Positions 12,366 to 56,845 of a stretch of DNA of 64,000 bases are shown here, in pieces. The stretch comes from Indolivaga macrotermitis (GTDB lineage: Bacteria; Bacteroidota; Bacteroidia; Bacteroidales; Dysgonomonadaceae). The translations under genes were made by a program, and so were the position numbers. A model generated the notes under the pieces. That model was not told the DNA's origin. It worked only from the letters and a program-made list of their open reading frames with translations, and did no database searches. Numbering within the stretch: position 1 is the first letter of the stretch; every line of letters begins with the position of its first letter. The stretch spans positions 248,001-312,000 of the forward strand of contig NZ_FQUC01000002.1 of the NCBI RefSeq assembly GCF_900128985.1. Reading direction: 5' to 3'.

Positions 12366-13502
12366 ATGAAAATTTATATCAAGCGTATAGCTTTCGGACT
12401 ATTGGTAATAATACTGATAGTCCTTGCTTCTGCAACCGTCATAGAAAAACTATATGATAGTGAATTTGTCTCCGCGAAGGTTTACCACTCATGGTGGTTT
12501 GTCACGTTGTGGATTCTGTTTTGCCTTGCTTCTTGTATTTATATTATCCTGCAGAAATTATACAGGCAAAAAGCCGTCTTCTTACTGCATTGTGCCTTTG
12601 TTGTTATTTTGTTAGGTGCTTTTATTACTTACATTTCAGCAGAAAGAGGATATATACATCTCAGGCAAGGCAAACCGCAAAATGCTTATATCCTTGATGA
12701 CGATATAACAAAACGCTCTCTGCCTTTTGAGATAAAACTGGTTCTTTTTGAAATGGAATACCATCCTGACTCTGACCAGCCAGCCGATTTCATTAGCTAT
12801 CTAATGATTGACGGAGAAATGTGTAAGGTCTCGATGAATAAGATAAAAACACATCAGAATTATCGGTTCTATCAAATTGATTATGACAGGGATGAGATGG
12901 GTAGCGTGTTGCTCGTAAACTACGATCCGTTCGGAATAGCAACAACTTATACCGGATACTTGTTACTGGCTTTATCAATACTATGGCTGCTATGGTTACG
13001 CATAGGATGGAAAGGCTTGGTATGTATTGTAATACCTACAATTATCGTTTGGTTTTACATATCCCGGATAAATCCGATGACACCAGTTTTGCGGACTCCT
13101 ATGCTCGCAATGCATGTATCAGTGATTGTAATCTCCTATCTGCTATTGCTGCAGATTGCAATAATGAGCCTGATCGGAATTATATCGAAAAAAAGGTGTA
13201 AACAAATGTATCGCTGGAACAAGAAATTACTTTATCCAGCACTATTTTTATTGGCTGCCGGAATATTTATCGGTGCAGTCTGGGCCAATATTTCATGGGG
13301 ACGTTACTGGGGATGGGATGCAAAGGAGACTTGGGCTTTAATCACCATGTTAGTATATGCAATACCCATGCACAGAAAAAGCCTTCCCTTCTTTTCCGAC
13401 CCATTGAAGTTTCACCGATATTGCCTTATCGCTTTCCTAACCGTACTGATGACCTTTTTAGGTGTTAGCTTCCTGTTAAGAGGCCTCCATAGTTATATAT
13501 AA
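12366..13502 (+). CDS. Compact ResB/CcsA-like cytochrome c biogenesis protein
   Basis: A 378-residue membrane protein. The N-terminal half has three hydrophobic segments and a soluble domain like Ccs1/ResB. The C-terminal half resembles CcsA: several transmembrane helices, a histidine in MLAMHVSVIVISY, and the tryptophan-rich WGRYWGWDAKETWALI (WWD-type haem-binding motif) near residue 312. CcsBA proteins carry haem across the membrane and attach it to CxxCH motifs. This one is much smaller than usual CcsBA fusions and sits 3 nt after a two-CxxCH protein, so it may be a dedicated lyase for that partner (inference). Confidence 0.8.
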   Translation: MKIYIKRIAFGLLVIILIVLASATVIEKLYDSEFVSAKVYHSWWFVTLWILFCLASCIYIILQKLYRQKAVFLLHCAFVVILLGAFITYISAERGYIHLRQGKPQNAYILDDDITKRSLPFEIKLVLFEMEYHPDSDQPADFISYLMIDGEMCKVSMNKIKTHQNYRFYQIDYDRDEMGSVLLVNYDPFGIATTYTGYLLLALSILWLLWLRIGWKGLVCIVIPTIIVWFYISRINPMTPVLRTPMLAMHVSVIVISYLLLLQIAIMSLIGIISKKRCKQMYRWNKKLLYPALFLLAAGIFIGAVWANISWGRYWGWDAKETWALITMLVYAIPMHRKSLPFFSDPLKFHRYCLIAFLTVLMTFLGVSFLLRGLHSYI

Positions 13503-48579: not shown

Positions 48580-48610
48580 TTTGTTAATTCAAAATTCTAT
48601 TATACATTTG
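48580..48610 (+). promoter_or_regulatory. Canonical Bacteroidetes promoter
   Basis: TTTG at 48580-48583 and TACATTTG at 48603-48610 are separated by exactly 19 nt, an ideal match to TTTG-N19-TAnnTTTG. No gene starts until rtcB at 48950, so it gives either a leader of over 330 nt or a separate small RNA. Confidence 0.7.
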
Positions 48611-48949
48611 CAACTGTAAATAGAATATTAACCCTTAAAAAATTTAGAGAAAGGGTACAATTATGTTGGTCAATAAATAACAAACACTCAGAAACTAATT
48701 AGGTTTATCGCGACGATAGACCTGACAGTACGAATAACACATATCTTCGATATCACGGCTGCATAAGAAGATAACTGGTTAGTTTCACAATCAAACTCAT
48801 CATTTTAAAATATTTAGTCAATGTTTTAACAGGCATTTGTTATGCTTATCCGTTATTGCATTGAAAAACAGAGATATAATCTGTCGTAGGCATACATATA
48901 TTAGTATACCTGCCGAAGACATATATATATATCGTTCATTTACAACATA
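48611..48949 (+). other. Long leader or possible small RNA upstream of rtcB
   Basis: No credible protein gene; only a five-codon ATG frame at 48663. Several local hairpins are visible: ACCCTT/AAGGGT (48631-48656), AGGTTTATCG with CGATAGACCT around 48701-48723, and AGGCATAC with GTATACCT just before 48912. No known RNA family or riboswitch is recognised. It could be a regulatory 5' leader of the RNA-repair operon. Confidence 0.4.
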
Positions 48950-50347
48950 ATGGGCATACAATTAAAAGAATTAAGTAAATTGGGATATACCAACAATGTA
49001 GCACGTAGTCTGGCTATAAATATTGTAAGTAAATATTGCAAACACGATAGCAAAGAACAGATCTTAACAACGCTCAGCGATTTGCTGGAAAATCCTGAAA
49101 AATATAAAGACAATGAAAGGTGGGGAAAACTCGCCGAACATTTTGCACCAACTGTATCGAATAAAGAATTTACAATTCACAATCTATCAGAGAACTATTT
49201 GCCATACAAGACTTACGGCGGTAAATTTATCGAAAGTCTGGCCAAACAGCAGATGGAGTTGGCAATGCGTCTTCCTGTTACAATAGCCGGAGCTTTGATG
49301 CCCGATGCACATGCCGGATACGGATTGCCTATAGGTGGCGTACTCGCAGTAGAGAATGCTGTCATCCCTTATGCAGTAGGTATGGATATCGGTTGCCGCA
49401 TGAGCCTGACAATATTTGATGTAAAAGCAGATTTTCTGAAACGTTATTCGCATCAGATAAAGGAGGCACTCAAAGAATATACACATTTCGGAATGGAAGG
49501 AGGTTTACCTTTCACTCAGGAACATAGGGTGTTGGACAGACCTGAATTTCAACTAACTTCATTACTGAAGCAAATTCACGGTAAGGCTGTCAGACAATTA
49601 GGTACATCCGGAGGGGGAAATCACTTTGTAGAGTTCGGTGAGATAGAACTGTTTGAGAGTAATATCACAAAACTTCCGGCAGGAAAATACATGGCATTAC
49701 TTTCTCATTCAGGCTCACGAGGTATGGGAGCAGCCATTGCCCGTCATTACAGCGATATAGCCCGCGAAACCTGTAAATTGCCAAGAGAGGCACAACATTT
49801 CGCATGGCTGGGACTCGATACTGAAGCAGGACAAGAGTATTGGATGAGTATGAATCTGGCCGGCGATTTTGCGCAAGCCTGTCACGAGCAGATACATCTC
49901 AACCTGAGCAAAGTTCTCGGTTTGAAACCGATTGCGAATGTAAACAACCATCACAATTTTGCATGGCGCGAAGAAATCGAAACAAACAGGTATGCAATTG
50001 TACACCGTAAGGGAGCTACTCCGGCAGCAAAAGGAATTGCCGGATTTATCCCTGGCAGCATGGCTACAGCCGGCTATTTGGTTTGTGGAAAAGGGGAAAT
50101 ACAATCGCTCAATTCAGCTTCGCACGGAGCCGGACGGGCAATGTCGCGCCAAAAAGCGAAAGAACAATTTACCCAATCAGCATTAAAGAAATTACTATCG
50201 CAACAGCAAGTAACCTTGATTGGCGGAAGTGTAGAAGAAATGCCTTTTGCGTACAAAGACATCGATAAGATAATGCCGGCGCAGGAATCATTAGTCGAAA
50301 TTCACGGTAGGTTTGTGCCACGGATAGTAAGAATGCATAAAGAATAG
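48950..50347 (+). CDS. rtcB: RNA-splicing ligase RtcB (PrfH-associated type)
   Basis: A 465-residue GTP- and Mn-dependent ligase that joins RNA 2',3'-cyclic phosphate or 3'-phosphate ends to 5'-OH ends. Conserved segments are all present: MPDAHAGYGLPIGG, GMDIGCRM (Asp146, Cys149 metal ligands), LGTSGGGNHFVEFGE, SHSGSRGMG, NVNNHHNFAWRE, HRKGATPA, GFIPGSMATAGYLV and ASHGAGRAMSR (guanylylated His392). It should be active. It opens an operon with prfH three genes on and kptA near the end. Established knowledge: RtcB partnered with PrfH (RtcB2-type) repairs ribosomes nicked in the decoding centre. The next gene starts 4 nt after its stop. Confidence 0.93.
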   Translation: MGIQLKELSKLGYTNNVARSLAINIVSKYCKHDSKEQILTTLSDLLENPEKYKDNERWGKLAEHFAPTVSNKEFTIHNLSENYLPYKTYGGKFIESLAKQQMELAMRLPVTIAGALMPDAHAGYGLPIGGVLAVENAVIPYAVGMDIGCRMSLTIFDVKADFLKRYSHQIKEALKEYTHFGMEGGLPFTQEHRVLDRPEFQLTSLLKQIHGKAVRQLGTSGGGNHFVEFGEIELFESNITKLPAGKYMALLSHSGSRGMGAAIARHYSDIARETCKLPREAQHFAWLGLDTEAGQEYWMSMNLAGDFAQACHEQIHLNLSKVLGLKPIANVNNHHNFAWREEIETNRYAIVHRKGATPAAKGIAGFIPGSMATAGYLVCGKGEIQSLNSASHGAGRAMSRQKAKEQFTQSALKKLLSQQQVTLIGGSVEEMPFAYKDIDKIMPAQESLVEIHGRFVPRIVRMHKE

Positions 50348-50351
50348 AATT

Positions 50352-50822
50352 ATGTATTGGCAAGAAAAACTAAATATAATAAAAAAGAAATACCCATCGC
50401 TGGTTTTCCGTGATATGTTCCATAGTGGCGGAGAGGTCGCCGAAAAAATCATCCGCAAATTCCATAATGCAACATATCTGACCTTTAAACAATGTGATGA
50501 TCCAAAAACATTACTAAAAGATTGTAGATTAGTTAAAGAGACAGGAATTCTGGAATTGGAAAACTATCTGTATGAGCTGGAGGATGGTATAAATTACTGG
50601 CTCTTTTTACTGAATCCACCGATGGGAAACACTTTTCAGGTATACGATTGCCGGAAAGCCCCATTGATCGATTTATACTATCTGGCTTCCGGTAGAGAAG
50701 ACCTTAAATTTTATATTGTAGATAAAAAGTACGAATGGCTGTTGTTGGTCGAAATAGAAACCGAAGAAAATACGGCATTCATTTATGAAAGTAAAGCAAA
50801 CAAAAATGGAAAAGAGATATAA
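50352..50822 (+). CDS. Uncharacterised 156-aa protein in RtcB-PrfH operon
   Basis: I do not recognise a family with confidence. It is a soluble, acidic-aromatic protein without signal or membrane segment. It opens with MYWQEKLNIIKKKYPSLVF and ends with a strand-rich part, LKFYIVDKKYEWLLLVEIE. The last segment resembles SMI1-like or DUF6756-like immunity-type proteins, in which a KKYxWL strand is common, but this is weak. It is 4 nt from rtcB and overlaps the next gene, so it is surely cotranscribed. A role as specificity or control factor for the repair module is inferred from location only. Confidence 0.6.
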   Translation: MYWQEKLNIIKKKYPSLVFRDMFHSGGEVAEKIIRKFHNATYLTFKQCDDPKTLLKDCRLVKETGILELENYLYELEDGINYWLFLLNPPMGNTFQVYDCRKAPLIDLYYLASGREDLKFYIVDKKYEWLLLVEIETEENTAFIYESKANKNGKEI

Positions 50823-51396
50823 ACAAACAGGATATTATTACGCAAAATATTACTCGGTAGAATGTCCGAAGTGCCACAAAGAAGCTACCGTTTCTCATGA
50901 CGGAAGTTATTGGGGGTGGAAAAATGCAGAACTAAAGTGTCTCCATTGCATGCACAAAGAAAACCGCGCTGATTTACTATTATATGAGGTAACAGTAAGG
51001 CGGAACTGCCCTGATTGTGGAAAACAGATTTCTGCAGAAATAAATAATCTGAAAAATCCACCGAAGGAGATGAACGTAACCTGCCCCGATTGTAGTTTTA
51101 GCGCCAAATATACTACCAACATAAGTTCTTATAGACTTGTCAATAAGCTGAATGGAATGAAAGGAGATCCCCTCTTCAATTATCCACTATGGCTTCAGGG
51201 AGAAGTGAAAAGAAATTTGTTCTGGGCATACAACAGAGAACATCTGGAAGAAATAAGATCTTATGTAGATGCTGAATTGAGAGAAAGACAATCTTTATAT
51301 TTAATGACTATGGTTGCGCGCTTACCTCAGTTTATCAAAGAAGCAAAGAACAGGGATGATATTCTGAAAAAAATAGACATTCTTCTGAAACGATAA
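50785..51396 (+). CDS. Zinc-ribbon protein with four CxxC motifs
   Basis: A protein of 203 residues (196 if the in-frame ATG at 50806 is used; both starts overlap the previous gene). The first ~110 residues carry CPKC, CLHC, CPDC and CPDC, enough for two zinc ribbons. The C-terminal half is helical (EVKRNLFWAYNREHLEEIRSYVDAELRER ... ILKKIDILLKR). Paired ribbons of this kind often bind RNA or ribosomes. The stop is 3 nt before prfH, so a role in recognising damaged ribosomes or RNA with PrfH/RtcB is plausible (inference). No exact family is recognised. Confidence 0.65.
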   Translation: MKVKQTKMEKRYKQTGYYYAKYYSVECPKCHKEATVSHDGSYWGWKNAELKCLHCMHKENRADLLLYEVTVRRNCPDCGKQISAEINNLKNPPKEMNVTCPDCSFSAKYTTNISSYRLVNKLNGMKGDPLFNYPLWLQGEVKRNLFWAYNREHLEEIRSYVDAELRERQSLYLMTMVARLPQFIKEAKNRDDILKKIDILLKR

Positions 51397-51399
51397 GTA

Positions 51400-52020
51400 A
51401 TGAATAATAAGATATACTTACAAATAACTTCCGGACGTGGTCCTGCAGAATGTTGCAGGGTAGTAGCTTTAGTTCTAGAGAAAATATTACAACAGGCAAA
51501 AAAGCTTGGTCTAAATACCGAAATTATCGAAAGAGAACAAGGCATAATAAACCGTACATTATTTTCGGCTGTCATATCGATCGAAGGAGAAAAAAGCCGA
51601 GAGATTCTAACGGAATGGGAGGGTACAATCCAATGGATAGCGCAAAGCCCATACAGGATTTACCATAAGCGAAAGAACTGGTTCGTCGGGGTCAAATCGT
51701 TCTCATCACCTGATGCTAATAATTTGAATATAAAAGAGATCTCTTATCAGACTCTTCGGGCATCAGGTCCCGGAGGGCAGCACATTAATAAGACCGAATC
51801 GGCAGTGAGGGCTACACATATTCCTTCCGGACTAAGTGTAACAGCATCCGATCAACGCTCACAAATACAGAATAAAAAACTGGCTACCGAGCGGTTATTA
51901 ATAAAGCTTTCGGCATGGGAAATAGAACAGGCTATGCAAAAAGCTCAGGAAAACTGGAATAATCACAATAATCTTCAACGGGGAAACCCGGTGAAGGTTA
52001 TACAACTTCCTTTAAATTAG
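51400..52020 (+). CDS. prfH: Peptide chain release factor H homologue
   Basis: A 206-residue class-I release-factor relative. It starts with the PrfH signature IYLQITSGRGPAECCRVV. The catalytic GGQ is at residues 125-127 (RASGPGGQHINKTESAVRAT), followed by a basic C-terminal tail, and the stop-codon recognition domain of RF1/RF2 is lacking. Established knowledge: PrfH acts with RtcB2 on ribosomes cleaved in the decoding centre, releasing the stalled peptide so that the 16S rRNA can be religated. Its place in an rtcB operon supports this. Confidence 0.92.
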   Translation: MNNKIYLQITSGRGPAECCRVVALVLEKILQQAKKLGLNTEIIEREQGIINRTLFSAVISIEGEKSREILTEWEGTIQWIAQSPYRIYHKRKNWFVGVKSFSSPDANNLNIKEISYQTLRASGPGGQHINKTESAVRATHIPSGLSVTASDQRSQIQNKKLATERLLIKLSAWEIEQAMQKAQENWNNHNNLQRGNPVKVIQLPLN

Positions 52021-52032
52021 AGAAACAACAAG

Positions 52033-52170
52033 ATGCAGAAAATAAGATTAGACAACGAACCGCCATTAGCTATTGAGGAATGGGGCAGGAAATAAAGGAG
52101 TGAGAGCAACAATGATCAATCATAACGGAGTTCCGATAGAATAAATAGAGTTCAAAAAACAAATTCAGAA
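52033..52170 (+). pseudogene. Remnant of a small VOC-like gene
   Basis: Two short coding scraps sit here. ATG at 52033 reads MQKIRLDNEPPLAIEEWGRK then stop. In another frame, 52097 onward reads GVRATMINHNGVPIE, a stop, then IEFKKQIQK. These resemble the beginning and end of a glyoxalase/VOC-type protein of about 130-150 residues, with the middle deleted. The family assignment is from memory and tentative; that it is a decayed gene is more secure. Confidence 0.45.
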
Positions 52171-52173
52171 AGT

Positions 52174-52767
52174 ATGTTTGCAAGAAGAACAGCCACCAGA
52201 ATAAAGAAAGGAACTGTACTAAAAAAGAATAAGCATTTTCAGACACCCAATTACTGGAATACCCGTCAGGACGAAATACAGATAGACATTGAGAATCCCG
52301 GAAATGGATATAAACATTTTCTTAAAAAGCGCGATATAAAACGATTTTTAGAAATACTTCCCAACCGGGAAGAAATAGACATTCAATTTGATGCAATCGT
52401 ATTATCTCATGGAAGTTATTTCGATGATGGTTATTACAATAATGGAGTTATTTGCATCTGTGCATGGAGAAAAGAAATGACAGTAGAATATACTTTAGAT
52501 TATTTCAATGATCATAAAAGGATATTTAATCAGCTTGGGGTGAGATATACTAAAAAGAAAGATTATATGATATGCGATTTCACTGAAAATCAAATTAAAG
52601 CATACCAACTCTTACATATCTTATTGCACGAACTGGGGCATCATCATGACAGAGTAAGTACAAAATCGAAAAGAAAGTGTGCAAGAGGCGAAAATTATGC
52701 CGAAAGCTATGCTTTCATGTATGAAGAAATTATATGGAACAAGTTTTTCGAAAACTTTCCACTTTAA
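52174..52767 (+). CDS. Putative HExxH zinc metallopeptidase
   Basis: A 197-residue soluble protein with a basic N-terminus (MFARRTATRIKKGTVLKKNK). Near the C-terminus is a metallopeptidase motif, HELGHHHDRVSTKSKRK (HExxH at residues 152-156), followed by ENYAESYAFMYEE, whose Glu could be the third zinc ligand as in gluzincins. The N-terminal ~140 residues are not recognised. It starts 12 nt before the AAA+/M41 gene, so two putative metalloproteases lie side by side in the RNA-repair operon. It may cleave a regulator or a toxin or stalled protein (inference). Confidence 0.65.
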   Translation: MFARRTATRIKKGTVLKKNKHFQTPNYWNTRQDEIQIDIENPGNGYKHFLKKRDIKRFLEILPNREEIDIQFDAIVLSHGSYFDDGYYNNGVICICAWRKEMTVEYTLDYFNDHKRIFNQLGVRYTKKKDYMICDFTENQIKAYQLLHILLHELGHHHDRVSTKSKRKCARGENYAESYAFMYEEIIWNKFFENFPL

Positions 52768-52779
52768 TTAGAATAAACA

Positions 52780-54819
52780 ATGGAACAAATAAATAAAGAA
52801 CAATATAAACAACATTTGAAAGGGAAAAGAGAAGTACTGGATAAAGCAGTTACACTCTTGAAACAAGAATTCATAGGTATTGACTCAGTTATCGACCAGA
52901 TTGCGAATGCTATTACCCCATGGTTTTTCTTTCCGGAGATGCAAGACCGGCCTGTAATTATCAATCTATGGGGGTTGACCGGAATAGGAAAAACATCAGT
53001 CATTAAGCGTCTGACTGAACTGATTGGATATACTGAACATTATTTCCGATTCGACCTTGGAGAATGTTCGAGCCAATACTTCGACATTCAGGATTCATTC
53101 AAAGATATTTACGAAAACTGTGATGGAGAACCCTTTATCATCGGATTAGACGAATTCCAACTGGCAAGAACGATCAACGAAGACCAGGAAGAAATAGATA
53201 GAGCATCTATCCGTGCTATATGGGATTTGCTCGATTCCGGGAAATTCGATGTTGTAAACTTCGATTACAATATGAGTTGGCTCAGCAAGCTTATCAAAAA
53301 ACTCGATTTAGCCCTGTTCAAAGGCGTGGAAGTTGAGAATGGGTTTATTTCTCAAAATGAAGATATATATTGGGACATTGTAAATCCGAATAATAAGCCT
53401 GAGAAAAAGAAAAACAAAAATGCAGAAAAAACGCTTTTTGTTTCCGAAGGTGAACTGGACTCAATCTTTGGCATGGTCGACCATCTCTTTCTGATAAAAA
53501 GCGAATTAAGGGAAAAACTCGATGTTATGGACGGAGATCAAACAATAGATTACCTGATAAGCCTTTACAAAGCTTCGTTGAAACCCAAGACTGTAGATTG
53601 TACAAAATCCCTTATATTCGTTATGGGCAATCTGGATGAAGTTTACACCATGAGCCGGAATTTTAATCCGGATATGAGTGCAAATGAATTTCATCGTCAA
53701 TCGAAAGAGATAACTGTTACAGAGGTGAAACAGGCTTTGCTAAACCGTTTCCGAAGCGAACAGATAGCCCGGTTGGGGAATAACCACATTATTTATCCGG
53801 CATTCGATGAAAAATCATTTTTCGGAATTATCCGTCTGGAGCTAGATAAAATCAGGAAAAAAGTATCTGATACTTACGGACTGGAAATGCTGTTTGACAC
53901 TAAAGTCGAACGTCTGATATACGACGAAGGTGTTTTTCCGACACAGGGAACACGGCCTCTCTTCACAACGGTTCATCAGATTGTAAATACACGTTTAGGC
54001 AAGATCCTGAACGAAATTTACTTGAACGGTTTCGAAGCCGATTCTCTCCGGTTTACCATAAACGAAGAAGCCTCGGCAAAAGATAATACCGCTCTGCAAA
54101 TAGATTTTCTGAAAAACGATGCGGTCATTCACCATATAACAGATCAGCAACCATTAGTACTAGGAAAACTGCGGCAGGAAAAACAAAACGACGAACAGGC
54201 AATTGTTGCCGTTCATGAGAGCGGACATGCTATTCTCTCGTCTGTATTAATGAAAACGATTCCTGATGTTGTTTTCTCTGTAACTGCAGATAGTAACAGT
54301 AGCGGCTTTGTACTCATGCGCCCCGAATGGAATTATATTTCGAAAAAAGAAATCATAAACCGTCTGGCAGTATTACTCGGTGGATTAGTTGCCGAACGTA
54401 TTTTATTCGGAGATGAGAATGTAACTATCGGTTCTAGTTCCGATCTGGGTAAAGCAACACATTTGGCCACATATGCAGTCTATATCTGCGGAATGGGTGA
54501 GGTAAAAGCTACTTTCGGTAATGAGAATATGAACAGTACACCTTCGGTTATATTTGACAATAGCAGTGAAACTGTAAATAAAGATGCCAAGGAGTTACTT
54601 ATAAAAGCAGAGCAATTAGCCGAAACGACACTGAATAAGCAAAGAAAACTATTGATCAAGATGGCAGATTATCTGAGTGATAAACGGACATTAAACAAAG
54701 AACAAATGCGAGACTATATCAAAGAATATGCAACAGATTTCGACTTGAACGAGATAGTTGAAGATGCCGAACATTTATTCTATCGTAAACATCTTAAAGA
54801 ACTGGCCGAAAAGCTTTAA
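52780..54819 (+). CDS. Soluble Clp-like AAA+ ATPase fused to FtsH-like M41 peptidase
   Basis: A 679-residue cytoplasmic protein without membrane helices. The AAA+ module has Walker A GLTGIGKT (65-72), Walker B FIIGLDEF (119-126), a sensor-1-like LIFVMGNLDE and a Clp-type small domain (GTRPLFTTVHQIVNTRL). The C-terminal module is an M41 metallopeptidase: HESGH at 479-483, LAVLLGGLVAERILFG, and the third ligand Asp near 555 in IGSSSDLGKAT. FtsH normally has two N-terminal membrane helices and its own AAA subtype; here a Clp/ClpX-like ATPase replaces them. It should be an ATP-driven protease acting in the cytosol. Between RNA-repair genes, its natural substrates would be nascent chains or proteins of damaged ribosomes (inference). 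Confidence 0.88.
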   Translation: MEQINKEQYKQHLKGKREVLDKAVTLLKQEFIGIDSVIDQIANAITPWFFFPEMQDRPVIINLWGLTGIGKTSVIKRLTELIGYTEHYFRFDLGECSSQYFDIQDSFKDIYENCDGEPFIIGLDEFQLARTINEDQEEIDRASIRAIWDLLDSGKFDVVNFDYNMSWLSKLIKKLDLALFKGVEVENGFISQNEDIYWDIVNPNNKPEKKKNKNAEKTLFVSEGELDSIFGMVDHLFLIKSELREKLDVMDGDQTIDYLISLYKASLKPKTVDCTKSLIFVMGNLDEVYTMSRNFNPDMSANEFHRQSKEITVTEVKQALLNRFRSEQIARLGNNHIIYPAFDEKSFFGIIRLELDKIRKKVSDTYGLEMLFDTKVERLIYDEGVFPTQGTRPLFTTVHQIVNTRLGKILNEIYLNGFEADSLRFTINEEASAKDNTALQIDFLKNDAVIHHITDQQPLVLGKLRQEKQNDEQAIVAVHESGHAILSSVLMKTIPDVVFSVTADSNSSGFVLMRPEWNYISKKEIINRLAVLLGGLVAERILFGDENVTIGSSSDLGKATHLATYAVYICGMGEVKATFGNENMNSTPSVIFDNSSETVNKDAKELLIKAEQLAETTLNKQRKLLIKMADYLSDKRTLNKEQMRDYIKEYATDFDLNEIVEDAEHLFYRKHLKELAEKL

Positions 54820-54832
54820 ATAAAGAAAATCA

Positions 54833-55426
54833 ATGGCAATACCTAAAAAAGGAAGCAGAAAGATAACCATAGATAATAACATCTTTGTATGGAAGATAAA
54901 GAAACATCCGAGCCACAACGAGCGGCATGATGTAGACTATCTGATACCTATTCAGCATATCGATGGCGGACAAATATTATTAGTCCGTTTAGGATATTGC
55001 CGTTCGGGATATAGCTTATCTCCTATTCAGGAAATAACGCCGTCTATCATTAAAAGATGTATTAAAGAGGCTACTATTAAAGGCTGGCATTTCGATAAAA
55101 AAGCAGCTCCATTGGTGTTAGATTTGGCGTATCTTCTGAGAGATGAAGCTATCTCTTTAACGAAACAGTTTTTTGATGAGATAATTAATAATTCTCGGAA
55201 CGAATCGGCAAACAAAATAGTTTCAAATGCAGACAGCCTGATGCAAGCCGGAGAATTTGAAATAGCTTTAGAAATGGTTATTGACAATTTAGCTGAATAT
55301 CAAATTGAATTACCAGAAGTAACTATAAATATAGCTGACAGGGCGCTAACTATTTATGGCAACCATAAGTATAAATCAGTATTGAGAGAGATACTCAAGA
55401 ACTATAAAAATGACAGAACAAGATAA
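54833..55426 (+). CDS. Uncharacterised 197-aa protein, possible MafI-like C-terminus
   Basis: The first 110 residues contain the recurrent hypothetical-protein signature MAIPKKGSRKITIDNNIFVW and a SPIQEITPSIIKRCIKEATIKGWHF segment. The last ~75 residues form a helical unit, ADSLMQAGEFEIALEMVIDN then AEYQIELPEVTINIADRAL, which recalls MafI-type immunity proteins. No catalytic motif is seen. It lies 13 nt after the AAA+/M41 gene and overlaps kptA by 17 nt, so it is translationally coupled to it. Function unknown. Confidence 0.6.
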   Translation: MAIPKKGSRKITIDNNIFVWKIKKHPSHNERHDVDYLIPIQHIDGGQILLVRLGYCRSGYSLSPIQEITPSIIKRCIKEATIKGWHFDKKAAPLVLDLAYLLRDEAISLTKQFFDEIINNSRNESANKIVSNADSLMQAGEFEIALEMVIDNLAEYQIELPEVTINIADRALTIYGNHKYKSVLREILKNYKNDRTR

Positions 55427-55952
55427 AAAACGGATCGGTAAATTCCTGAGCCTTATTCTCAGGCACGATCCTCAAAAAATAGGAATAGAGCTCGATGAAC
55501 AAGGTTGGGCTAAAGTGAGTGAACTGATAGAGAAATGCAAAAAGCATCGTTATCACTTTTCGAGGGAAGATCTTATAGAGATTGTTGAGACAAACGATAA
55601 GCAGCGCTACTCATTCAATGAAAAGCGCAGTAAAATCAGGGCAAATCAAGGGCATTCGATAGACATTGACCTAGCCTTATCACCTACTGAACCTCCCGAA
55701 TATTTATATCATGGGACAGCAACACGTTTCCTTAGCTCTATTATGGAACAAGGCATTGTGAAAGGCAGCCGCCAGCATGTTCATTTGAGTAAAAATAAGG
55801 AGACAGCTGATAAAGTAGGCTCGCGCCACGGAAAACCGGCTATTTTAACAATCATGTCGGGAAAAATGTATACGGATGGCATTCTGTTCTATCAATCGGA
55901 GAATGGTGTCTGGCTGACCGATTATGTGGATACAAAGTATATATCCGAATAA
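55410..55952 (+). CDS. kptA: RNA 2'-phosphotransferase (KptA/Tpt1 family)
   Basis: A 180-residue enzyme that uses NAD+ to remove a 2'-phosphate from RNA, releasing ADP-ribose 1'',2''-cyclic phosphate. Conserved parts are present: GKFLSLILRHDPQKIGIELD (Arg-His), RSKIRANQGHSI (Arg), YLYHGTATRFL and SRQHVHLSKNKETADKVGSRHG. In eukaryotes Tpt1 finishes tRNA splicing. In bacteria its substrate is uncertain, since RtcB does not leave a 2'-phosphate. Its presence in an rtcB-prfH operon gives a rare clue that its substrate arises from RNA damage or repair (inference). Confidence 0.92.
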   Translation: MTEQDKKRIGKFLSLILRHDPQKIGIELDEQGWAKVSELIEKCKKHRYHFSREDLIEIVETNDKQRYSFNEKRSKIRANQGHSIDIDLALSPTEPPEYLYHGTATRFLSSIMEQGIVKGSRQHVHLSKNKETADKVGSRHGKPAILTIMSGKMYTDGILFYQSENGVWLTDYVDTKYISE

Positions 55953-55971
55953 ATGATAAAAAATAAAAAAC

Positions 55972-56757
55972 ATGAAAATTATAGATATAGGTATAAATCT
56001 AATGCACCGGTCGTTTAACGAAGACCGGGAAGCCGTAGTACAATCGGCTATTGAATCAGGGGTAAGCCCCCTGATCATAACAGGAACAAGTGAGAGAAGC
56101 AGCGTATTAGCAGCAAAATACGCATCTTCATATCCCGGTAAATTATATAGTACTGCCGGAATACATCCACACGATGCAAAATCATGTACAACTGATACTA
56201 TCAAAAATCTGAAAATTCTTACCAGAAAAAGCTGTGTTGTGGCCATCGGTGAGTGCGGATTGGATTATAACCGTGATTTCTCGCCCCGGGAAACTCAGCG
56301 TAATTGCTTCGAAGCACAAATTGAATTAGCTTGCGAAACAGGCTTACCATTGTTCCTACACGAGAGAGACGCTTTTGATGATTTTTACGGAATATTAGAA
56401 AAACATCAAAACGATATAAGTAATATGGTTGTTCATTGCTTTACCGGTCAGAAATATCAACTGGAAAAATATCTGGAACTAGGTTGCCATATCGGACTGA
56501 CAGGATGGATATGCGATGAGCGGCGAGGCAAGCATCTACCTGATCTAGTGAAGATTATTCCGAAAGACAGACTAATGATCGAAACAGATGCACCGTTCTT
56601 AATTCCGCGAAATCTGGAGAAAAAACCTAATAATGGAAGAAATGAACCCCAATATCTGGTTCACATATTAGATGAACTCGCCTATTATCTGGATGAAGAC
56701 ATTGACGATTTGGCTGATTGTATATATATGAATACCAAAAGATTCTTTAACATTTAA
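55972..56757 (+). CDS. tatD: TatD-family metal-dependent nuclease
   Basis: A 261-residue TIM-barrel hydrolase, very close to E. coli TatD in layout. Visible segments are DIGINLMHRSF, STAGIHPHDAKS, VAIGECGLDYNRDFS, LHERDAF, VVHCFTGQKYQ, GLTGWICDERRG and LMIETDAPFLIPRNL. These supply the His and Asp metal ligands. TatD is a 3'-5' exonuclease on DNA and RNA. It starts 19 nt after kptA and precedes a strong terminator, so it is the last gene of the operon; trimming damaged RNA ends is a reasonable role. Confidence 0.93.
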   Translation: MKIIDIGINLMHRSFNEDREAVVQSAIESGVSPLIITGTSERSSVLAAKYASSYPGKLYSTAGIHPHDAKSCTTDTIKNLKILTRKSCVVAIGECGLDYNRDFSPRETQRNCFEAQIELACETGLPLFLHERDAFDDFYGILEKHQNDISNMVVHCFTGQKYQLEKYLELGCHIGLTGWICDERRGKHLPDLVKIIPKDRLMIETDAPFLIPRNLEKKPNNGRNEPQYLVHILDELAYYLDEDIDDLADCIYMNTKRFFNI

Positions 56758-56791: not shown

Positions 56792-56829
56792 AATAAGGCA
56801 GGAAACTATAAGAAGTATCCTGCCTTATT
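56792..56829. terminator. Bidirectional terminator after tatD
   Basis: AATAAGGCAGGA (56792-56803) pairs perfectly with TCCTGCCTTATT (56818-56829), 12 bp, with AT-rich flanks on both sides. It ends the repair operon and the convergent aldo/keto reductase genes. Confidence 0.85.
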
Positions 56830-56845
56830 GCATTTTAATTATAGA

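Follow-up and report, generated by a model that had tools for sequence, protein, structure and literature searches.

A modular RNA-repair and ribosome-rescue operon headed by a conserved structured leader RNA in Indolivaga macrotermitis

We analyzed a 64,000-nt stretch of the genome of Indolivaga macrotermitis (GCF_900128985.1, contig NZ_FQUC01000002.1, positions 248,001–312,000 of the forward strand; hereafter the window, whose numbering is used throughout), in which nine genes with an rtcB–prfH core lie behind a conserved leader RNA. All nine plus-strand open reading frames (ORFs) that the original prediction placed at 48950–56757 were found: rtcB, orf156, orf203, prfH, a gene for a protein with an HExxH motif, an AAA+/M41 protease gene, orf197, kptA, and tatD, with gaps of 4, −38, 3, 153, 12, 13, −17, and 19 nt in that order. 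Protein searches covered 61 relatives, a 393-genome sample of the order, and a 395-genome sample of the phylum, and searches with the RNA model R1 covered 175 relatives; L and G numbers denote loci and genomes. As for the strong terminator claimed for the end of the run, a 12-bp hairpin of −21 kcal/mol does fold 3′ of tatD between convergent genes (about 56792–56831) and is likely a bidirectional terminator, but the minus strand has the better T tract, and a consensus terminator scan of the window does not list it.

The core of the run is assigned, on profile scores and structure alignment, to an RNA ligase, RtcB, and peptide chain release factor H, PrfH. RtcB (48950–50347, plus strand, as are all genes below) belongs to the RtcB RNA ligase superfamily (PF01139, 264 bits; cut-off 27) and aligns to the Pyrococcus horikoshii enzyme; residues C149, H225, H253, and H392, which we take to be catalytic and to include the histidine of the SHGAGR motif, were invariant among 8 sequences. 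It is the only RtcB of its genome (two match pieces are one ORF), and it scored below the cut-offs of the PrfH-linked RtcB2 equivalog TIGR03073 (129.2 bits; cut-off 271.8) and of NF007153. PrfH membership was defined by a TIGR03072 score over the cut-off, a GGQ motif, and the lack of the N-terminal RF3-interacting domain. The window protein (51400–52020, 206 aa) scored 290 bits (cut-off 166.65), is related to the solved PrfH chains 9mor and 7sa4, and has an intact GGQ, which was invariant across 9 sequences. In the accessible text of PMC9223846, the RtcB2–PrfH module of Escherichia coli ATCC25922 gives protection from colicin E3: PrfH releases ribosomes whose decoding centre has been cut, and RtcB2 then reseals them. 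Judged against that text, the present loci are alike in that rtcB is directly followed by prfH in many of them and in that the PrfH family is the same, but the window RtcB belongs to another subgroup, and the window locus adds kptA, the protease, the HExxH protein, tatD, and a structured leader. Separately, genome G837 carries a second RtcB, of another subgroup, directly 5′ of its leader RNA and rtcB–prfH operon (L177:1275–2585, RNA strand taken as plus).

Two of the downstream genes encode a predicted protease and a putative one. The 679-aa protein (52780–54819) is, by its domains and motifs, a fusion of an AAA+ unfoldase with an M41 zinc protease: it matches peptidase M41 (PF01434, 93 bits) and the ClpB D2-small domain (PF10431, 23.6 bits; cut-off 21.9), with a Walker A motif at residue 65, DEFQ at 124, and HESGH at 479. 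It shares the M41 domain and HExxH with FtsH, the M41 AAA+ protease, but differs in that the matches of its AAA part are to ClpB/Clp chains and not to FtsH, in that hydropathy reveals no strong membrane segment (maximum 19-residue value 1.61), and in that its TIGR01241 score (78.5 bits) is far below the FtsH cut-off of 600. Homologues of at least 63% identity occurred at eight loci (the window, L036, L041, L042, and L044–L047), with rtcB in six, with kptA–tatD and no rtcB in L045, and alone in L046; in L036, L041, L042, and L045, kptA starts 1–2 nt 3′ of the protease gene. A ninth copy, in genome G001, is broken: the gene is split over two frames and lies far from the rtcB–prfH operon of that genome (L130:8971–10972). 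A 33%-identical protease follows rtcB–prfH in the distant genome of L099; its long branch left it unplaced in the protease tree, and independent recruitment and ancient linkage both fit. The HExxH protein (52174–52767) was assigned to no family in profile scans, its predicted structure was too poor for use (mean pLDDT 50.3), and it was found in 4 of the 61 relatives, three times in the rtcB–prfH operon and once in G023.

More distant AAA+/M41 proteases have other neighbors. In five loci (L120 and L125–L128; genomes G511, G583, G466, G456, and G541), a divergent protease gene directly adjoins that of a WYL-type regulator (confirmed by Pfam in L127), the two genes forming a unit of their own with no relation to rtcB. 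A homologue from Riflebacteria (L048) had no rtcB or kptA alongside. In IMG/VR, 22 contigs (L134–L155) encode distant proteases of the same architecture; their 5-kb flanks held no rtcB, kptA, or RNA ligase, and one (L148) has a 69-residue release-factor-like match near the protease. Plasmid and phage-record searches left the window protease unmatched at 1e-20, PADLOC gave it a weak DolB match (24.7 bits), and a single-sequence query of IMG/VR with the HExxH protein found none.

The last two genes encode RNA- and nucleic acid-processing enzymes, as their profile scores indicate: KptA (55410–55952), an RNA 2′-phosphotransferase and member of the KptA/Tpt1 equivalog (NF002014, 261.7 bits; cut-off 239), and TatD (55972–56757), a nuclease of family PF01026 (228 bits). 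KptA and PrfH were present together in six genomes of the order sample against 0.5 expected; the place of KptA in RNA repair is discussed in the part of PMC9503650 available to us. TatD scored below both the E. coli-type TatD equivalog (NF007745, 291.1 bits; cut-off 395) and QatD (NF041926, 76.6 bits; cut-off 230), and PADLOC gave a weak QatD match (66.9 bits). The idea of TatD as a dedicated partner is weakened by the three TatD-family genes in the genome. Two side observations concern kptA. Genome G023 holds a second copy beside ADP-ribosylhydrolase-like and macrodomain-like genes, labeled by eye (L091:8100–9993), possibly an ADP-ribose-clearing unit. In L044, a macrodomain-like gene (weak Pfam match; DarG-like by NCBIfam) directly follows kptA (12746–13222), as would be expected if its product cleared the ADP-ribose cyclic phosphate arising from KptA.

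Some relatives carry a further set of RNA-sealing genes, in which a PF09414 RNA ligase adjoins a protein with HD and AAA_33 kinase domains; the ligase had no match in the window's genome. Operons of an HD-Pnk with an ATP-dependent ligase are reportedly known from Runella slithyformis, and the arrangement is alike, but here the pair trails rtcB–prfH–kptA in L034, L041, L044, L177, and L183. A separate operon of G023 (L114:6780–9975) consists of the RNA ligase, a 276-aa HExxH-like protein, the HD-kinase, and, last, the HExxH protein; it would thus place two putative metalloproteases in one RNA-sealing operon. The two share only a short stretch (E = 0.003).

The remaining ORFs are less readily assigned. 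orf156 (50352–50822) is weakly DUF6756-like, with one such match on a Rufibacter plasmid; it occurred in 2 of the 61 relatives, both times within the rtcB–prfH operon; L038 also carries it, L044 has a remnant, and its structure prediction was too poor for use (mean pLDDT 40.0). orf203 (50785–51396) has four CxxC pairs, read as two zinc ribbons, and a C-terminal tail. Proteins associated with RFH–RtcB are described as having one or two Zn ribbons and a strongly positive C-terminal helix; set against this description alone, orf203 has the four CxxC pairs but a net charge of only +3 over its last 70 residues. orf197 (54833–55426), whose C-terminus is weakly MafI-like, stayed below the cut-off of the MafI immunity family (NF033691, 20.9 bits; cut-off 31) and was unmatched in 60 relatives and, at 1e-3, on plasmids. 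The decayed gene claimed for one gap is indeed there: the 153-nt gap carries a remnant (52082–52162) of the gene for a 128-aa protein, which relatives retain intact in the same operon; over 27 residues, the identity is 63%. A reading of this protein as a glyoxalase/VOC enzyme, made by eye only, was dropped (no Pfam match; PDB glyoxalase E = 0.58). A charged protein encoded upstream of rtcB in relatives had no family match.

The gene order and content of the run exceed chance, as they recur in related genomes, the check on which the original prediction had staked itself. PrfH over the cut-off was found in 9 of the 61 relatives and 15 of the 393 order genomes, giving 20 different loci, in which the same operon held kptA in five (the window and L034–L037), the protease in three (the window, L036, and L099), the HExxH gene in three (the window, L036, and L037), tatD in the window alone, and the RNA ligase in three (L034, L037, and L039, with pieces in L102). 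Adding the protease-found loci (eight, of which three are duplicates or away from rtcB) and those found through the leader RNA gave 30 non-duplicate loci, with rtcB in 26, prfH in 23, kptA in 11, the upstream charged protein in 10, the protease and the 128-aa protein in 8 each, the RNA ligase in 7, tatD, orf203, HExxH, and the HD-kinase in 5 each, a metallophosphatase and orf134 in 3 each, orf156 and a DEDDh exonuclease in 2 each, and orf197 and the macrodomain-like gene in 1 each. This census is biased toward the protease because L041, L042, L044, L045, and L047 were fetched through it; the counts from the 20 PrfH-found and 21 RNA-found places are less biased. It leaves out duplicates (L043 of L036, L178 of L041, L179 of L042, and L184 of L045), L103 (without a detected rtcB), L104–L106 (another RtcB subgroup), L114 (the ligase operon), and loci whose protease is not beside rtcB (L046, L048, L079–L082, L120, and L124–L130).

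The main order is constant: upstream protein, rtcB, prfH, HExxH, protease, kptA, tatD, RNA ligase, HD-kinase; the DEDDh exonuclease and 128-aa genes were found on either side of prfH. The gene-richest loci are L044 and L041. Remnants of the HExxH gene in L035 (20 residues), orf156 in L044, the HD-kinase in L097, and the 128-aa gene in the window imply piecewise loss from larger operons. Dysgonomonas hofstadii (L042) is without prfH and retains kptA, the protease, HExxH, and tatD, and L045, which has the same leader but neither rtcB nor prfH, retains orf203, the protease, kptA, and tatD. The recurrent linkage of kptA, tatD, the AAA+/M41 protease, and HExxH to rtcB–prfH bears out the idea of an RNA-repair and ribosome-rescue operon, whereas that of a complete nine-part system is not supported: the run is modular, with an rtcB–prfH core, and not a fixed machine. 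The proposed sequence of action, from PrfH through the protease and RtcB with KptA to TatD, likewise finds no support here. The novelty claimed for these partners is likewise partial. Accessory genes (TPR, Pol-beta NTase, and Zn-ribbon partners) are already reported to accrete around RFH–RtcB (Burroughs and Aravind 2019, PMC6514570), including a protein with one or two Zn ribbons and a charged helical C-terminus that resembles orf203, but section 2.4, the part of that paper compared here, names no AAA+/M41 protease, HExxH protein, KptA, TatD, RNA ligase/HD-kinase, or leader RNA. In a literature search of partial coverage, which does not establish absence from print, nothing surfaced that describes the leader or, as partners, the protease, HExxH, or TatD.

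Upstream of rtcB, 12-mers shared between the upstream regions of relatives revealed a conserved non-coding block, on which the original prediction was silent. A promoter that we take to fit the Bacteroidetes-type consensus (TTTG, 19 nt, TACATTTG; 48580–48610, plus strand) is conserved across the aligned leaders, and the leader RNA starts about 10 nt past it (48621–48790, plus strand; 156.4 bits with R1). The leader contains hairpin P1 (48631–48656), followed by a predicted P2-closed junction (48691–48786) that encloses P3 (48701–48723), P5 (48726–48729 with 48774–48777), and P4 (48741–48773). Its fold has a z-score of −3.76, and none of 200 shuffles was as stable. RNAalifold on 14 sequences gave 22 pairs, 9 of them with compensatory changes. 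The structure counted below includes P2, P3, and P5 and leaves out P4, which is variable in sequence with a mostly conserved ACGGCUGCA stretch and was taken from single folds, in many but not all of which it appears. The named structure was paired in 95.7% of 349 cells, compared with 29–54% in slid controls; cells with double changes numbered 36 against a shuffled mean of 10.8 (0/500 shuffles), pairs having double changes 10 against 5.9 (1/500), and the covariation score was 0.362 against 0.201 (0/500). A fresh prediction from 23 sequences recovered P1, P2, and P3, with 22 pairs, 10 of them compensated (for example, AU:13/GC:10 and UA:12/CG:11). The leader RNA is thus real. An Rfam scan of the window leader gave no match over the gathering threshold and three far below it, and scans of the L042, L044, and L185 leaders gave none; the leader looks like a new RNA family.

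The R1 search returned 21 matches in 20 genomes, including all nine PrfH genomes among the relatives and G035, which has no PrfH over the cut-off. All 21 lie directly upstream of operon-family genes on the same strand: rtcB follows within one to three genes in 17, and orf203–protease–kptA–tatD in G035; of the two G821 copies, one precedes a prfH piece and the 128-aa gene, and the other, like the G861 match, only the 128-aa gene. Downstream of the 21 places are kptA in 10, the RNA ligase in 6, HExxH and the protease in 5 each, and tatD in 4. It follows from this uniform placement ahead of varying genes that what stays constant is the leader rather than any single protein. Weak matches upstream of the operon were seen in L097 (33.5 bits) and L098 (26.3 bits), and others may be lost because of stricter filters. 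Where the leader heads the 128-aa gene family alone, as a 126-aa gene in L181 (2460–3215) and a 266-aa double version in L187 (471–1645; RNA strand as plus in both), the arrangement suggests that this protein and the leader are tightly linked.

The leader contains a mini-ORF, ATG TTG GTC AAT AAA TAA (MLVNK; 48663–48680, plus strand). The 3′ arm of P1, AAAGGGT, is its Shine–Dalgarno-like site (GAAAGGGT), and the ATG lies 6–7 nt further on. In 22 of the 23 R1 RNAs, an ATG and four codons are followed by a stop (TAA in 19, TAG in 3); the 23rd, L188, reads MLVKKLLLHI. Changes are often silent or frame-keeping (TTG/TTA/CTG for Leu, AAA/AAG for Lys, and TAA/TAG for the stop), and in L097 the ORF is one codon shorter (MLEK). 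The seven loci that R1 missed or barely detected (L096–L102) likewise encode related peptides ahead of the first gene: besides that of L097, these are MLEYNI in L096, MLENNI in L098, MIEYN in L100 and L101, and, read by eye, MLEYNLHIKSAGIDIHW in L099 and MIDFTLHIKPEVGKA in L102 (the last without a clear Shine–Dalgarno site), so that a short leader ORF is present in all 30 loci. Among these seven, the promoter pattern matched only in L096 and L098, a P1-like hairpin covers the Shine–Dalgarno site in L096–L098, L100, and L101, and a P2-like helix of different sequence occurs in L096–L098. The background of the Shine–Dalgarno-plus-mini-ORF pattern in the window is 21 in 128 kb-strands (0.16 per kb-strand). 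These patterns indicate that the mini-ORF is probably translated.

Taken together, the locus may be a modular damage-response operon for cleaved rRNA and tRNA, with a structured leader RNA at its head that contains a short and probably translated ORF; we favor this reading tentatively, its chances falling somewhat short of even. Its mechanistic part, namely, that the leader is a ribosome-integrity sensor whose mini-ORF of 4–6 codons (longer in a few relatives), with its start locked in a hairpin, switches on the toolkit of PrfH, RtcB or ligase with HD-kinase, KptA, and AAA+/M41 when damaged ribosomes fail, with PrfH resetting it where present, is possible but doubtful. In this scheme, healthy ribosomes would translate and leave the mini-ORF, and the P2-closed domain would restrain expression; with decoding centres or tRNAs cut, ribosomes would linger at the mini-ORF or fail there, the leader would refold, and the repair genes would be expressed. 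PrfH would free the ribosome and RtcB reseal the RNA, KptA may clear 2′-phosphates that RtcB cannot use, the ATP-dependent ligase and HD-kinase of relatives may form a second sealing route, and the AAA+/M41 protease may dispose of proteins that are trapped or truncated, or of ribosomal proteins that are damaged. By acting on ribosomes stalled at the mini-ORF, PrfH would complete a negative feedback loop.

The ErmB, BmrCD, and MsrD leaders, ribosome-mediated attenuators of resistance genes, offer a precedent as far as their accessible descriptions go: they, too, place a short leader ORF and a downstream RNA structure ahead of a gene that relieves ribosome distress. The present leaders differ in an ORF of mostly 4–6 codons, a Shine–Dalgarno-like site within a hairpin, a conserved junction RNA, and their place in Bacteroidales before RNA-repair genes, and they are known from sequence alone. 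The L102 leader is predicted to end in a canonical terminator hairpin, the 5′ arm of which could instead pair with leader-ORF codons. In the model, the probabilities of terminator and antiterminator were 0.67 and 0.30 with no ribosome and 0.99 and 0.00 with a ribosome at the stop codon.

Several points weigh against the damage-response reading and its sensor. Regarding regulation, a modeled ribosome at the start codon of L102 gave 0.76 for the terminator and 0.14 for the antiterminator, against 0.30 for the latter in the free leader, so that the simplest scheme, in which stalling means on, does not fit. No plus-strand terminator is listed between the window leader and rtcB. Because P2 starts (48691, 10 nt past the mini-ORF stop) at about the edge of the footprint expected of a ribosome on the stop codon, steric coupling of the mini-ORF to P2 is not demonstrated. 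PrfH feedback would not be universal, as prfH is absent or broken at 6 of the 21 R1 places (G035, G818, G821 twice, G861, and G459; G851 is cut by a contig end). Regarding structure, further pair types were no more frequent than in shuffles (21 against 20.8; 302/500), P5, which we placed by eye, is paired in 82.1% of cells, and P1 is untested by the 14-sequence set because it never varies there; moreover, the R1 rows are not independent, as 19 of the 20 genomes are in the window's family. Regarding the genes, transcription of the whole operon is something we infer, and the six genomes with prfH and kptA hold them in one operon in only two and on different contigs in four. RtcB ligation leaves no 2′-phosphate, and the need for KptA is therefore not obvious. 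In the order sample, only the window and L099 have the protease beside rtcB; the other 8 of the 10 protease genes are the broken G001 copy and seven at unrelated places. In the phylum sample, none of four other full-length homologues (about 30–47% identity) is beside rtcB or kptA. The protease that the original prediction called dedicated is thus recurrently linked to rtcB–prfH but usually, in the order sample, found elsewhere.

The genes after rtcB–prfH may alternatively form a hot spot of independent defense or immunity genes that share a promoter rather than a pathway, with AAA+/M41–KptA a separate system; we regard this as a credible alternative that is nevertheless improbable. It would account for the frequent gain and loss with remnants noted above in the window, L035, L044, and L097, for L045, where orf203–protease–kptA–tatD stands without rtcB and prfH, for five of the other order-sample protease genes, which are paired with WYL regulators, and for orf197, found only here and weakly MafI-like. 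It does not lead one to expect that the main gene order is kept wherever the genes co-occur, that enzymes of RNA or ADP-ribose (KptA, RNA ligase, HD-kinase, DEDDh exonuclease, macrodomain-like protein, and TatD) make up the majority of the named passengers, that HExxH recurs in a second RNA-repair operon, or that the 33%-identical protease of L099 is likewise behind rtcB–prfH.

A rather unlikely alternative concerns the leader itself, which could be a trans-acting or protein-binding RNA (a scaffold, a nuclease decoy, or a site for the 128-aa protein or orf203), with an ORF that only protects or processes the transcript. Its conserved loops and unpaired stretches (the GGGAN loop of P3 and the ACGGCUGCA stretch) exceed what an attenuator needs, three of the 21 matches (G821 twice and G861) head the 128-aa gene without rtcB, and the window leader has no listed terminator. 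Against this stand the position of all 21 matches in cis, on the same strand and directly 5′ of the first gene, the presence of the short ORF at all 30 loci, among which stop codons are swapped and one deletion preserves the frame, and the attenuator-like prediction for L102.

An ordinary RtcB2–PrfH colicin-resistance operon with chance neighbors, to which the clear TIGR03072 membership of PrfH and the loci L040, L100, and L101 (rtcB–prfH without another recognized partner) would be congenial, is highly improbable and disfavored by the census, given an RtcB far below the TIGR03073 cut-off and order base rates (kptA in 14 and the protease in 10 of 393 genomes) so far below the PrfH-found (5/20 and 3/20) and RNA-found (10/21 and 5/21) counts that chance adjacency is very unlikely, with no probability attached because the loci are related.

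How bacteria notice cut ribosomes and switch on repair is, to our knowledge, not known for PrfH systems, and KptA is a bacterial enzyme of unsettled role. The operon ties a soluble AAA+/M41 protease, an HExxH protein, and KptA to RtcB–PrfH, and covariance model R1 finds such loci without any protein query. The conserved leader RNA with its mini-ORF is a concrete candidate for the sensor, one that a reporter could test.

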